Of a stretch of 36,442 bases of DNA, positions 2,899-36,442 are shown piece by piece; the first letter of the stretch is position 1, and every line of letters begins with the position of its first letter. The notes beneath the pieces were generated by a model that ran no database searches, was not told the origin of the DNA, and saw only the letters and a program-made list of their open reading frames with translations. Origin of the DNA: Planctomycetota bacterium (GTDB taxonomy: Bacteria; Planctomycetota; J132). The stretch covers positions 1 through 36,442 of the forward strand of contig RFKQ01000001.1 in assembly GCA_003694635.1 (NCBI GenBank), read 5' to 3'. A program made the translations under genes and the position numbers.

Positions 2899-3192
2899 GA
2901 GGTTTTCTAGCAAAGAATGTACCATTTTTAGAAAAAAGAGGAAATCTTTTATTTTTTTCGACTTCCTTCGGCAGTTTTCTAGAATTAGAAAATACCTAAT
3001 TCTTTTATTTTTAATGAATTACTCCAACTAAACTTTTTTCGGAATATTTGCAAAAATTGAAAAATAATTTTAACTGCTTTCTCTTCTAAAGGAAATAAAA
3101 CCAGAAAATAATCTGGCTTATTTTTAAGAGATCTGGGAAAATTTGAGCGATCTTTGGGGTCAGTTCGCTCTTATCCCGCACCGGAGAAGAAT

Positions 3193-3232
3193 GTAAAAAT
3201 ATTTAAAGTAACCCTGTCTCGTTTTGGGACAC
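3193..3232 (+). repeat. 40-bp hairpin element, copy A
   Basis: Its core is AAGTAACCCTGTCTCGTTTT followed by GGGACAC, preceded by an A/T-rich GTAAAAATATTTA. As RNA on this strand, UGUCUC (3215-3220) pairs with GGGACA (3226-3231), including one G-U pair, around the loop GUUUU. It lies about 295 bp downstream of repeat copy A in the same orientation. Confidence 0.85.
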
Positions 3233-3477
3233 ACGGATTTAGGCAGAAGAAAATCCAACAAAATTTCTCTTCTCGAAATGCTTGAATCCAAAATGAAAAA
3301 AGATTTTTATCTACATTAAATTAAATATATAGAAAAAGAAAAAAATCTGGCAGAATCTAATGACCGTTGTCCGCAAATTAGTACACTTTTTGCTAAGCAA
3401 AAAAAAACTCCCCTACCATCTGCGCCCTTATTTAAATTTGCCCTGGAACCAATGAATTCCAACCGCATCTGATAAGC

Positions 3478-12035: not shown

Positions 12036-12224
12036 AAGTTTTTCATAAAAATTTAACCCAGCCAAACTCCTTTTCACATTTTCACAGAATAATCAAGAAA
12101 GAATGCAACTTTCCCTACCCTCCCTTATATCTAGGGGTCTAGCAATGTACAAAAACCTAAACTCCCTTACTCTACTCGCCCACCAGAAACGTATTTCTTC
12201 CTTCTCTTCTCCCTCCTTTTCCAA

Positions 12225-12264
12225 GTGCCCCAAAATGAGACAGGGTTACTTAAAAGATTTTTAC
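12225..12264 (-). repeat. 40-bp hairpin element, copy C (inverted)
   Basis: Read on the minus strand it is GTAAAAATCTTTTAAGTAAC followed by CCTGTCTCATTTTGGGGCAC. The stem UGUCUC/GGGGCA still forms on this strand using G-U pairs. This is the only one of the four copies without a 177-bp repeat nearby. Confidence 0.85.
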
Positions 12265-12347
12265 TCTCTTTTCTGGATATAGAAACTACCATAGTTTTCT
12301 AACAGTTAATGAATTAAAAAAAATAAATCTAGAAAAATTGTACGCTT

Positions 12348-15779: not shown

Positions 15780-15874
15780 ATACGCTTTTATGAAATCTTC
15801 TCAATGAATTACTCTTCCTTGTCTACAAGTCTAACCCTGAAATACATACCAATTCTTCGATCCAAGTTTCTGAG

Positions 15875-16050
15875 TTTTTAAACACCCCACCCAGGGTGGG
15901 GGGAGTCTAAAATAAGGCGCACCTCCTCCCTTTGTACAAGCGATAAAAAGTTTGCTTATACTTAAAAAGAGGTTTTCTCCTTCCTAGTCTCTCCCTATTC
16001 CGACCCGCCTCCCGAGGGAGAGGGGAGAGGAGAAAACCCAGTATGTTGAG
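15875..16050 (+). repeat. Structured 177-bp intergenic repeat, copy B
   Basis: It is nearly identical to copy A at 2722. The GC palindrome, the middle TTTGTACAAGCGATAA segment, and the outer (GGTTTTCTCC/GGAGAAAACC) and inner (CTCTCCCT/AGGGAGAG) stems are all kept. The few differences lie mainly in unpaired stretches. Confidence 0.92.
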
Positions 16051-16231
16051 TTTTATAGAAGCAAAATTTGTTCCATATCTCTAATCAGCGATACATTTTA
16101 ATCATTCAGCCTCTCTATTTTTTTAAGAAATTTTTTGTATCTTCTTTATCCTTAAAAAATTAAAATTTTTCAATAACTTAAAGCCATAAGACAAAAGAAA
16201 GCAAAGTTCAGCTCCCATAAGCTCATAAATA

Positions 16232-16271
16232 GTAAAAATATTTAAAGTGACTCTGTCTCGTTTTGGGACAC
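16232..16271 (+). repeat. 40-bp hairpin element, copy B
   Basis: Begins GTAAAAATATTTAAAGTGAC and ends TCTCGTTTTGGGACAC. The first 18 bases match copy A exactly. The UGUCUC/GGGACA hairpin occupies 16254-16270. It ends about 90 bp before the ATG of the phosphoesterase gene and points toward it. Confidence 0.85.
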
Positions 16272-16359
16272 TCTACTCCAAAAACCTCTTCTCCTTCTTC
16301 CTCCACCACCATTGCCCATTTCTTAGACAACTGAAAAGTTCAAAAAAGGATGGTAAATC

Positions 16360-20488: not shown

Positions 20489-22435
20489 TCAAAACTCCAC
20501 CTCAAAAACCATACATTGACCAGGCCTCAATTTCACGTGAAAAAAAGGCCTCCTCGCCTCATCCAACGCCAACAATACCTCCCACTGCGTAAAATAATCC
20601 CTCAACCTCTGCTCCCGGATATTCTGACAAAAAGAAAACCAAACCTTTCCTTCCTGAGGCAAGGAAAAATTCCGATTCCCCACCACCACTAACCCCCTCC
20701 CACCCTTTCGATAGCGACAAAACCCAATCATATCCCTATGGCGAGAGCGCAACACAAAAAAACTCTTCGCATCCGAATCCACCACTAAATCCAAATACTT
20801 CCGGCGAAGCCGAACCACCTCCGAGATCCAATCCCCCATCCCCTCCTCCCACGCAAAAGCATAAGCACTAAAAAGCGGCAACCGCTCAGATGGATAGCGT
20901 TCCAATTCCTCGCGCGTAAACCCTAACCCCGTATTGATGGGATATTCCTCAAAAAGCTCAAAACCAGAATGAATAAACAAAATCGCAGGCAAAAAGGCAT
21001 TCATGGTCAAAGCAAATTTCGAATACAACCTCCCTCCTTCCCGAGAGGCCGCCCTTGGAGTGTTGTGTGTCTCCGGCGTTGCAAAAAAAGGAACCGGAAC
21101 CCCCTCCCTTTCGATACGCTCCAATAGATCCACAAACTCCTCCCGATGCTGATCCGCCCAACAATGCCCCACCACCGCACTATATCCCTCCGCCTGCGAA
21201 GACGCCCGCAGCTCAAAATTCTCATCCCAAAACACAAAGCCCTCCCTCTTCGCCTTCCTCATCATCTGCGCCTTTAACTCCGCCGGCAGCGCATGCCCCA
21301 TATCCAACATCACCCCATCAATCCCAAACCTCTCCTGATAATAAGGAATCACTTCCCCCAATCTCTGCCAAAGCTCCTCATTTCGATACCCCTCCTCCCG
21401 TAAACGCTCATCGTACATTCGCAACGTATTGTACGCCATATAATTAAAATCAGGATGCGTGTGCAACTTCAAATACGTCACATCCTCCCACGGCGGCTGA
21501 ATGTCATCCGGCGGCCAGTCCGCAAAAGCCGGAGGAATCTTTACCCGCCGACCATCCTTCAATACCCCCCTCCACTCCTCCCCTTCCAAAAGAACATCCT
21601 CAGCAGAAGGCGGAGAAGTAAACCAACCCCGATAAAACTCCGAAGGCGGCGGAAGATTTCGAAAATCCTCCTCCAAAACCTTCCGGCGAATCTCCTCCAA
21701 CTCCACCTCACTAAACTCGGGCGCCCCAAACACCCCTTCCCCTCCCCCATCCCCATCACGCGCCTCCAAAATCCAATAATACCACTCCGGATGCTCCTTT
21801 ACCCAATCGCTATCCCGAGCAGAAGTGCGCAACACAAACTCCAACACCACCTTCATCCCCAACCAATGCGCCGCCTCCACAAACGCTAAAAATTGCGTCT
21901 CCAAATCCAACCCCAACAACGGCTCCCCTAGCAACTCATCCAAGCGAAAAGGATTTTTTATCGCATACGGAGAACCTAAATCCCCCTTCGCTCCATGCTT
22001 ACCCACCGCCGTAATCGGCAAAAGATGAACAGCGTTTACCCCCATAGAACGCAGATAAGGCAGGAAAGCAATCGCCTTTAAAAATGTCCCCGTCTCCCGA
22101 AATCCATCCCGATTCAACACAGATACCACACCATCCCCATCATGATCAAACGCAACACTCACCCGCACCATCATATTGTAAACCACCGCATAAGGGCTCC
22201 AATCCCCCGCCGGAAAATCCTCTCCACCACCAGGAAAATCCAAAATCGCCCGTATCCTATCCCGGAAAAAAGATACCGGTTCCACCTTTACACAAGAACT
22301 CCTTCCACCACTCCCCTCCCTCAACCAAAGAGAAGGAACAAAATAAGAAACTTCAGCTCCCCCAGAAATCTCGAAACGCTCTAAACTCCTATAAACCTCC
22401 CCCAAAGCCGGCGGAAAATCAAATCCTAAACTCAT
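20489..22435 (-). CDS. GH13 alpha-glucan maltosyltransferase-like protein (Thermotoga MTase type)
   Basis: The ATG at 22435 has AAGAGG eight bases upstream. A TTG 11 codons earlier is less likely. The 648-residue protein closely resembles Thermotoga maltosyltransferase as I recall it: NRDGFRETGTFLKAIAFLP, LGSPYAIKNPFRLDE, FVLRTSARDSDWVKEHPEWY, PPWEDVTYLKL and FGIDGVMLDMGHALP. These enzymes move maltosyl units between alpha-1,4-glucans. The nucleophile Asp is D378 and the acid/base Glu is E405 in WDENF. Conserved region IV reads ATPETHNTPR, with Asn458 where Asp is expected, so catalytic competence is uncertain. No signal peptide is seen, so it is cytoplasmic. Confidence 0.88.
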   Translation of the reverse strand: MSLGFDFPPALGEVYRSLERFEISGGAEVSYFVPSLWLREGSGGRSSCVKVEPVSFFRDRIRAILDFPGGGEDFPAGDWSPYAVVYNMMVRVSVAFDHDGDGVVSVLNRDGFRETGTFLKAIAFLPYLRSMGVNAVHLLPITAVGKHGAKGDLGSPYAIKNPFRLDELLGEPLLGLDLETQFLAFVEAAHWLGMKVVLEFVLRTSARDSDWVKEHPEWYYWILEARDGDGGGEGVFGAPEFSEVELEEIRRKVLEEDFRNLPPPSEFYRGWFTSPPSAEDVLLEGEEWRGVLKDGRRVKIPPAFADWPPDDIQPPWEDVTYLKLHTHPDFNYMAYNTLRMYDERLREEGYRNEELWQRLGEVIPYYQERFGIDGVMLDMGHALPAELKAQMMRKAKREGFVFWDENFELRASSQAEGYSAVVGHCWADQHREEFVDLLERIEREGVPVPFFATPETHNTPRAASREGGRLYSKFALTMNAFLPAILFIHSGFELFEEYPINTGLGFTREELERYPSERLPLFSAYAFAWEEGMGDWISEVVRLRRKYLDLVVDSDAKSFFVLRSRHRDMIGFCRYRKGGRGLVVVGNRNFSLPQEGKVWFSFCQNIREQRLRDYFTQWEVLLALDEARRPFFHVKLRPGQCMVFEVEF

Positions 22436-22589
22436 CTGCAGAGCCTCTTTTGGACAGCTTTTCGACAAAAGCTCCCAAGCCTCTCAAAGATTTTAACTTG
22501 AGGAAAAACCTCTTTGAAAAACGTTTTCAGACTTCCAAAAACACTCACTCACCCAAAACTCCAACAACTTCTCCTCTCCATTCCACCAC

Positions 22590-29838: not shown

Positions 29839-29947
29839 TCCCCCTCTTTTAACTTCTTTGTTAAACCGATTCAGCTCTGCTCTTGCTAACAAACAAAAAA
29901 ATTCTTTTCTCTTTCTTCTCAAATACAACCCCTCGTTTCCCTTGTAA

Positions 29948-29987
29948 GTGTCCCAAAACGAGACAAGGTTACTTGAAAAATTTTGAC
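29948..29987 (-). repeat. 40-bp hairpin element, copy D (inverted)
   Basis: Read on the minus strand it contains CAAGTAACCTTGTCTCGTTT followed by TGGGACAC. The UGUCUC/GGGACA hairpin occupies 29949-29965. In minus-strand reading it lies downstream of the inverted 177-bp repeat, the same order as at the other two pairs. Confidence 0.85.
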
Positions 29988-30150
29988 TAACTTGCTGCGT
30001 TGAGAAGCTTTCACTCCTACCTCCCATATTCCCCAAAAAAAATACACAACTTACTGAAAAACAAATAGATACGTCAATTATCACAAAAAAAAATCTATTA
30101 AAACAAAATAAACTCTTCAAAATGGAACGTTTTTTGCTAAAAATTTAGCC

Positions 30151-30326
30151 CAACATCTGGGGTTTTCTCCCTATCCCCTCGCCCTCGGGAGGCGGGTCGG
30201 TATGGGCGAATCGGAAAGGAGAAAACCCCCCTCTATCCATAAGTATAAGCGGATCTATTCTAGCTTGTACGTAGGGGGAGGTATGCCATCATTTCTTACC
30301 CCCACCCTGGGTGGGGGTCTAAAAAA
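30151..30326 (-). repeat. Structured 177-bp intergenic repeat, copy E (inverted, diverged)
   Basis: The inverted and most diverged copy. The outer stem is perfect over 12 bp (GGGGTTTTCTCC at 30159-30170 with GGAGAAAACCCC at 30218-30229). The inner stem is TCGCCC (30179-30184) with GGGCGA (30204-30209), and the GC palindrome CCCCACCCTGGGTGGGG is kept. The apical loop sequence CCGACCCGCCTCCCG is identical to the other copies, while flanking linkers differ. Confidence 0.88.
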
Positions 30327-30513
30327 CGTAAGGATTCCCAAAAATCTAGCCTTTCTTCTCTGCTTCAATCTGAATTAACACACTATGAAAACTAACCAAT
30401 TTAATAGAAGGAGAGCACTTTTTCTATAAAGGCTAAAAAGATGTTGAGGATATGAAAAACAAATAGATTTTTAAATTTCATTGATATTTGAACAAATTCT
30501 TTCCAATGAAAAA

Positions 30514-30528
30514 TTCCTGCATCAGGAA
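30514..30528. promoter_or_regulatory. Perfect palindrome upstream of copA, possible operator
   Basis: TTCCTGCATCAGGAA has two perfect 6-base arms with a CAT centre and lies about 76 bases before the copA ATG. A regulator site is plausible. It does not match the CopY box (TACANNTGTA) and I cannot assign a regulator. Confidence 0.4.
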
Positions 30529-30604
30529 AGTATCGAATAATATAACTCTAGCTATTCTAGGACGTTGCGCAAACTTCAAATAAATAAAAAATTCAAAATC
30601 CCAA

Positions 30605-34382: not shown

Positions 34383-36442
34383 TTACGGGTTTTTAGGGAA
34401 TTTTTCTTCGGTTTTTATTTCCAGAGGTTCGAGAAGGGCAGGTTGGATGGGAATTTTGGTATCTGCGAATTGAAGAATCAGGCCACGGGTGCGAATTTTA
34501 TAGAGTTTTGAAGGGAGGGGAGGTAGGATTTTATGGAATTTAGGATGGACTTGGGTTTTGAGGTGGGCGAGTTGAGGTTCCGCGTTTGCGAGGTGGAGGT
34601 GGTGGAGTTGGCGTCGGAAATCTTCGTAGGGGTAGGCGTGTTCTTCCATACGTTCGAGGATGGGGGCGATTGAAGTGGCGAGGTTTTGGAGAGCTTCTTG
34701 GAGAGGTTGAGGGGGGTTAGCATGCCAGCGGAGCAGCTTTTGATGAAGGTGGTGGAGTTCTTTCCAGAGCCAGTGGGCAAAATCAGTGCGAAACTGGTCC
34801 GGGATCAGTTGATTTCGCCGCTGGGGGTGGGTGACCAGGAGGTGATGGAGAAAGCGAAAGGCGCCCTCTTGGAGGTAGGGGTGAGGTAGCCAATATTTTT
34901 GCGCGGTGTGGAGAAAGGTGGAGAGTGCGTTTTCTGGAGAAGATAAGGAGATTTTCCACCATTGTTTTAGGGCGCAGAAGAGGGCGAGGGGGCCACAAGA
35001 AGAGAGAGTTAGGGGGTGTTGGAATAGAAGTGATTCAAGAAGAGAGGGAGTTTGGTGTTGCATCGCTTGAGTGAAGGAAGGAAGAGAGGCGGGGATTTTC
35101 TTTAGATAATTGAGGAGTGGATCGGGAGACGAAAAAGGTGGAGGAGGTGGCGGCGTAGAGAGAAGTGGGAGCTGAAGTTGAAGAAGTTTATCTTCTAAGA
35201 GTTTGCACTGTAGAGCAAGAAAGGGAGAGGTATTTTGGCAGGTGCTATGAAGTTTCTTGACATGCGCTAAAATCTGATCAGCATGCGCGGTTAGCTGTTT
35301 ATGATAGCGCTGTCGGTGGTCGTTTTCGAGTTTTTGCAAAGTCTGCTGAGTCTGGTGCAACTGACGAGCGATTTCGCCAAACAGTCGGGGAAACTTCTCA
35401 AAAAGAAACAGGAATTTTTTTCGTTGGGGAGGAAGGTGGGGGAGGATATTTTTTTTCCAAAAGTAGAGAAGTAGAGAGGGATGTACGGAATTTAGAAGTT
35501 TGCGGTAGCTCTCTTCAAAAGTCTCTAGATCTAGGTGCTTGGCGGCGGCTTGAAGAAGGCCGGCTTGGAGGTCGGGGCAGGTGAAGCGGTGGAAAGAAGA
35601 GGGTTGGAGCCACGAAGCAAGAAAGGGCTGGGAGTCCTCAAAAAACTTTAGCCATTGTTCTTGAGAGAGGGAGCAGTGTTTCAAGATACAGTGGGCGAGT
35701 TGGCGCTGAGGTAGCTTCCAGGCGGAGGGAGAGGGGGTGGATGAGTTGGCTAAAGCGGTGTAGAGCTGCAGCAGATGCAGATTGCGCTGAGGCGTGGAGA
35801 GGCGAGCGGAGAGAATGCAGGATTGCTGAAGACGGAGGAGTTCTTCCCCCTCCAGGTACTTGCGTTGGGTGTAGAGTTGTTGGAACAGTTGGGTGAGGAG
35901 GGAGTGGGGGAGGATGTAGCGTTTTTTTAATTGGGCGCCTAGGGGGTGCAAAAGTGCCTCGGACACGAAAGGAATGGCTTTGTAGGGGGGAGGTGGGAGA
36001 GGGAAAGAGGAGGGAGGTGCAGGGGAGAGTTGGCTTAGCCAGAGGAGGGCTTGAAGAGGGGGCGGGGAGTCGGGGGAATTGGCCAGCTGACGGAGTTGAG
36101 GCAAAAGGGGGAGCAGGGCGGGAGTGGTGGTGTGGAGGGCAACTTGGAAAGCCGCGGCGGGTTGGTCGGGGAGGAGTTGGCGGAGCAACTTGGTTTGTTG
36201 GTGGGAGTTCAGTCGTTGAAATACGGGGAGGACAAACTTGGGGGAGATTTTCTCTAGGGCGTGGGGGAGAAGGTGGGGAAAATGCGAAAGAGCGAATTGG
36301 GTGAGGAGGTGGAGGAGGGCGTGGCGCAGAGGGGGGAAGAGGGAGGGAAGGGTCAGGGTTTGTTTCCAGATTTCTTGCCAGCGGGCGAGGAGAGCATGCC
36401 AGGTTTGGGGGGATTGTTTTTTTAAAATGGATACAATTTTAT
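34383..36442 (-). CDS. Large helical-repeat-like protein, 5' end outside window
   Basis: The frame stays open from the stop at 34383 to the end of the window, giving at least 686 residues. A TTG at 36188 is a possible internal start, but sequence upstream in the same frame continues in the same style (for example TWHALLARWQEIWKQTLTLP), so the gene is best read as truncated by the window edge. The product is extremely rich in Leu, Pro, His and Gln, with repeated amphipathic helices suggesting a HEAT- or TPR-like solenoid. No catalytic motif or signal peptide is visible in this part. The composition mirrors the strong G-richness of the + strand here. No family is recognised. Confidence 0.7.
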   Translation of the reverse strand, partial: KIVSILKKQSPQTWHALLARWQEIWKQTLTLPSLFPPLRHALLHLLTQFALSHFPHLLPHALEKISPKFVLPVFQRLNSHQQTKLLRQLLPDQPAAAFQVALHTTTPALLPLLPQLRQLANSPDSPPPLQALLWLSQLSPAPPSSFPLPPPPYKAIPFVSEALLHPLGAQLKKRYILPHSLLTQLFQQLYTQRKYLEGEELLRLQQSCILSARLSTPQRNLHLLQLYTALANSSTPSPSAWKLPQRQLAHCILKHCSLSQEQWLKFFEDSQPFLASWLQPSSFHRFTCPDLQAGLLQAAAKHLDLETFEESYRKLLNSVHPSLLLYFWKKNILPHLPPQRKKFLFLFEKFPRLFGEIARQLHQTQQTLQKLENDHRQRYHKQLTAHADQILAHVKKLHSTCQNTSPFLALQCKLLEDKLLQLQLPLLSTPPPPPPFSSPDPLLNYLKKIPASLPSFTQAMQHQTPSLLESLLFQHPLTLSSCGPLALFCALKQWWKISLSSPENALSTFLHTAQKYWLPHPYLQEGAFRFLHHLLVTHPQRRNQLIPDQFRTDFAHWLWKELHHLHQKLLRWHANPPQPLQEALQNLATSIAPILERMEEHAYPYEDFRRQLHHLHLANAEPQLAHLKTQVHPKFHKILPPLPSKLYKIRTRGLILQFADTKIPIQPALLEPLEIKTEEKFPKNP

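Follow-up and report, generated by a model that had tools for sequence, protein, structure and literature searches.

A sharp GC-skew switch coincides with one copy of a dispersed, RNA-gene-like element in a Planctomycetota genome

The 36,442-nucleotide stretch of DNA analysed here (the window, contig C94 of a 2.52-Mb genome in 158 contigs that is 67% complete) contains a sharp switch from C-rich to G-rich composition on the + strand. This switch coincides with one copy of a dispersed two-part element, and across the genome the spacers carrying the element show an element-specific upward bias in GC skew. Judged from base composition, the switch at 30.1 kb may mark a site of replication fork divergence, one of about 40 origin-like element copies of variable efficiency, a tentative reading to which we would give slightly less than an even chance. 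The switch is not evidence for the single chromosomal origin, given that skew changes sign across many contigs.

The preliminary description had reported an abrupt C-to-G reversal in the spacer at 29839-30604, which our analysis confirmed. The cumulative G-C curve of the window reaches its minimum at base 30397, inside a switch zone (30120-30604, not assigned to a strand) delimited by skew segmentation and by a two-segment changepoint that beats 5000 block permutations. Values of GC skew lie between -0.3 and -0.5 ahead of 30.1 kb and between +0.2 and +0.5 beyond 30.6 kb, passing through a transition zone at about 30150-30600 where it is near 0 and which overlaps part B of the element. As would be expected of an origin, the change is sharp and holds regardless of gene orientation: third-codon-position skew on the + strand is -0.60 in + genes and -0.55 in - genes to the left of the switch, and +0.40 and +0.52, respectively, to its right. 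The sample line counts given earlier, 28 C with 0 G on one side and 30 G with 7 C on the other, are exact.

An origin had been proposed from this pattern, and its C-to-G polarity and replication-type asymmetry stand, but the site is probably not a single genome-wide minimum. The reversal is not unique to one spacer: changes of sign are found in numerous other contigs. No DnaA box was detected in 29839-30604 with the consensus TTATCCACA at one mismatch or fewer (other box consensuses may apply), no dnaA, dnaN, gyrB or parAB was recognised among the ORFs of the window when the ORF list was read by eye, and dnaA is located on another contig, C99. A single oriC at 30.1 kb was rejected on the missing boxes, the position of dnaA and the many similar reversals.

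Skew was analysed over 1.79 Mb of the genome, which segmented into 802 kb of C-rich, 448 kb of G-rich and 536 kb of neutral sequence, with many sign changes within contigs. The asymmetry is extreme, with a median |GC skew| of 0.52 at 4-fold sites (4-kb windows), and GC and AT skew at these sites are inversely correlated (r=-0.73), the leading strand being rich in G and T. It is of the replication type and independent of transcription: the sense-strand skew of genes has a mean of zero (intercept of the sense third-position skew, -0.04), and third-position skew tracks that of the flanks with r=0.89. The many sign changes imply that one origin on an undisturbed chromosome is insufficient, and that numerous rearrangements, numerous start sites, or a combination of the two must be involved.

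With a 49/51 split of genes across the two polarities of skew, there is no leading-strand gene preference despite the strong asymmetry. The asymmetry also shifts codon positions 1 and 2 (r of about 0.7 with position 3); by eye, T, P, Q, H, and L abound in proteins with C-rich sense strands and V, G, E, and R in those with G-rich sense strands, as exemplified by the genes at 20489-22468 and 34383-36188. Contig C99 (L010), on which dnaA adjoins mutS, shows no strong switch in skew, and inspection of its listed ORFs by eye revealed no further replication gene.

When the spacer 29839-30604 was used as a query, 68 matches were obtained in its own genome, the self-match included. The genome contains about 40 copies of a two-part element, in which part A is a palindromic box and part B a promoter followed by a structured RNA; a search of 391 other genomes of the phylum, none of them from the same class, returned neither part. 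Two relatives from this phylum share about 75% DNA identity with a named Phycisphaerae contig, which makes Planctomycetota the probable phylum. Part A (29941-29994, + strand, about 40 copies) carries the palindromic box TGTCCCAAAACGAGACA and a conserved GGTTACTTnAAAAATTTTGAC tail; in general form it is a 17-mer palindrome, TGTCCCAAAAYGRGACA, whose AT-rich tail is conserved. Its copies, which occur in both orientations and are occasionally tandem, nearly all have a part B at a distance of 60-350 bp. It resembles an activator-binding site and is a candidate enhancer-binding site, an iteron being possible as well.

Part B (30088-30336, + strand, nhmmer E=1.2e-56) is present in 41 copies in the 1.79 Mb analysed, and its model, R1, gives 45 matches in the genome when contig-end fragments are counted. 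It carries the sigma-54-type promoter GGAACGTTTTTTGCT (30124-30138, + strand), followed by the main hairpin GGGGTTTTCTCC/GGAGAAAACCCC with its invariant loop CGGGAGGCGGGTCGG (30159-30230, + strand, fold z=-2.71), a TATAAGC/GCTTATA hairpin, a GGGAGG-rich linker, and a terminator-like 3′ hairpin CCCCACCC/GGGTGGGG that is conserved in the alignment (30299-30316, + strand). In an alignment of 31 copies, five pairs of the main hairpin are changed on both sides. The GG-N10-GC promoter was found in all 36 copies with a complete upstream part, with the main hairpin usually 34-51 nt downstream, which by sequence is the fixed-distance arrangement of a sigma-54-dependent sRNA gene; the genome encodes rpoN and six full-strength Sigma54_activat matches. 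Rfam gave no family match for the 30.1-kb copy, the one searched, and six matches to the 17-mer loop in viral contigs are at about the chance level (estimated). These features point to part B as an RNA-gene-like element, a putative sigma-54-driven structured RNA.

Qrr and CrcZ are sigma-54-dependent small RNAs that combine a GG-N10-GC promoter, an upstream activator-type box, and a structured RNA ending in a terminator. The element has the same layout of promoter, box, and terminator-ended structured RNA. Unlike Qrr and CrcZ, it occurs in about 40 copies in one genome, has no Rfam match (30.1-kb copy), and is tied to skew switches.

The window holds two further copies of part B, both on the - strand and both detected by nhmmer: one at 2713-2957 (part A at 3187-3239), where skew steps up by 0.20, and one at 15867-16101 (part A at 16227-16275), where the jump is -0.12. 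A part A lacking part B is located at 12219-12270 (+ strand), with a jump of +0.25. The left side of the window had been described as C-rich throughout; it is not uniformly so, with smaller upward steps at 2.7 kb and 12.2 kb (part A only) and none at 15.9 kb. Elsewhere, the 8.7-kb contig C87 (L066) has element copies inverted at its two ends (269, + strand; 8580, - strand), which may be only assembly breaks at repeats.

The relation between element and skew was measured as a jump, the skew of the right 2.5-kb flank minus that of the left, across 853 spacers. The mean jump was +0.197 for the 27 spacers with part B versus -0.004 for the 826 others, irrespective of gene orientation or spacer length (permutation p of about 1e-5, spacers of at least 350 bp). 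Omission of the 30.1-kb copy, which had prompted the test and whose jump of 0.67 is the largest among element copies, left a mean of +0.179 (n=26, p of about 1e-4). Jumps were positive in 22 of the 27 spacers, and those beyond 0.3 numbered nine up and none down with the element versus 36 up and 34 down without it. The jump is maximal at zero offset from the element, and the half-jump, which is about 0.10-0.12 inside 3 kb, has dropped to about 0.03 at 5-6 kb. At 4-fold sites it amounts to +0.32±0.08 for GC and -0.15±0.05 for AT, matching the G+T coupling seen between the strands across the genome.

Neither long spacers in general nor RNA genes account for the jump: element-free spacers of at least 350 bp had a mean of -0.022, and tRNA loci were flat (-0.09 to +0.08). 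Divergent spacers without the element likewise showed no upward jump (-0.054). Together with the zero mean sense skew and the tracking of flanks, this value indicates that transcription is not the cause of the jumps. The association varies between copies: the copies L012, L062, and L020 and the 15.9-kb copy show no jump, jump size is uncorrelated with element score, and contig-end copies, a partly independent set, gave a weak outward bias of the right sign that was not significant (+0.059, n=15). Large reversals occur also at spacers without the element, and a sawtooth at all reversals was dropped, as the overall excess of up over down vanishes away from the element.

REP-like palindromic units were observed in about 118 spacers, in the forms CTGAAAACCTTTTTT/AAAAAGGTTTTCAG, CGGAACC...GGTTCCG, and GTAGGGGAAACCC...GGGTTTCCCCTAC (for example at L205:9850-10230, L018:6990-7220, and window:22439-22622). 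Their arrays, considered as the switch, showed a weak and mixed association with it. The surroundings of C-type REP linkers are more C-rich than those of G-type linkers, and the orientation of these units may record fork direction.

In terms of composition, divergent forks are marked by a C-to-G jump of one sign that does not depend on transcription; this favours an origin-like role for the element, and we infer fork divergence as the cause of the jumps from composition. Under this reading, forks would diverge at the 30.1-kb site in a fair share of replication rounds, and each copy would act as an origin-like start of its own efficiency, high for the 30.1-kb copy and low or nil for some of the rest. 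The averaged fork direction would then jump at the element and decay over about 5 kb, superposed on a genome with many rearrangements. The presence of dnaA in the genome, the copies that show no jump and the large reversals away from the element count against this reading. Initiation might rely on an RNA primer or R-loop, or on protein binding to part A; alternatively, it might be secondary to breaks at the hairpins. The broader proposition, in which chromosome replication starts at tens of origins that are defined by sequence and contain an RNA gene, each with a sigma-54 promoter and an enhancer-like box, giving a sawtooth of fork direction and of base and amino-acid composition, is possible, but we regard it as rather unlikely.

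The main competing explanation is that the switch at 30.1 kb is the breakpoint of an inversion or other rearrangement in a genome with one origin, the element being present as a repeat at which recombination took place; this could well be so, although we are inclined to doubt it. In its favour, sharp reversals are numerous in the genome and take either sign, the element is repeated at scattered sites in both orientations, and the jump at 30.1 kb, being the largest of any copy, could combine an inversion with an element effect. The preliminary description had itself named an inversion as a rival. Since each inversion produces one upward and one downward jump, the two should be equally frequent, which is what is seen at element-free spacers. 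The element spacers, in contrast, are one-signed, and because inversions, translocations, and assembly joins should all yield up and down jumps equally, an origin-like role is favoured for them as a class of sites rather than for the 30.1-kb copy alone. The 30.1-kb copy is also diverged, its longest exact run shared with other copies being 34 nt, so that it is unlikely to have recombined recently with another copy. For this particular copy an ordinary inversion is possible, as is one that adds to the element effect.

It is also conceivable, but improbable, that the element is no initiator and was inserted or retained at pre-existing zones of fork divergence, or that it serves as a site of fork restart or recombination-dependent start. 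The association by itself gives no direction of cause, and the strong hairpins are candidates for breaks and restart; the jump is nevertheless centred on the element and decays on both sides. Somewhat less probable again is long outward transcription from the elements, with transcription-coupled mutation making the non-template strand G-rich on both flanks. The sigma-54-type promoter and the expected polarity agree with it. However, this promoter is one-directional and yet both flanks are affected, and transcription was rejected as the cause of the jumps on the zero mean sense skew and the flat controls, namely the near-zero intercept, the divergent element-free spacers, and the tRNA loci. A chimeric assembly join at a repeat is very unlikely: the assembly is fragmented, with numerous contig ends located in or close to element copies, but the same signature recurs at other copies, joins would be sign-symmetric, and the 34-nt limit on exact repeats in the spacer also led us to reject misassembly by repeat collapse.

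The origin-like reading of the element can be set against several known systems. Multiple-origin replication with irregular skew profiles has been reported for the cyanobacteria Synechocystis sp. PCC 6803 and Nostoc sp. PCC 7120, in which dnaA is dispensable (PMC7198777). The part of that report available to us does not name a repeated DNA element at which replication starts; the upward skew jumps described here, by comparison, fall at a defined, repeated element. In other bacteria, too, multiple origins have been argued from skew, although polarity changes have other causes as well (PMC3269012). Skew changes near origins in yeast, where it correlates with origin efficiency and is unlinked to the orientation of the origin consensus (PMC3459929), and origin-associated skew jumps are known from the human N-/U-domains (PMC3320577). 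Those are eukaryotic origins defined by ORC/ACS or chromatin, while the genome studied here is bacterial, carries an RNA element of sigma-54 type, and has a per-gene skew of up to 0.5-0.8 at third positions. In oriK replication of E. coli rnhA mutants, R-loops initiate RNA-primed starts away from oriC (PMC7045392), which would be a possible mechanism here; oriK, however, needs the loss of RNase H and, unlike the element found here, is not a dispersed sequence family.

The rule of one origin per bacterial chromosome has reported exceptions in cyanobacteria. We are not aware of any dispersed sequence element linked to these exceptions and, to our knowledge, based on a limited literature search, a dispersed RNA-gene element at skew jumps has not been described in a bacterium. 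If the elements start replication, they would constitute a sequence-defined multi-origin system in a bacterium, with a possible link of nitrogen- or stress-type sigma-54 control to replication initiation. Even if they are not origins, a family of about 40 RNA-gene copies that consistently separates domains of strand bias needs explaining.
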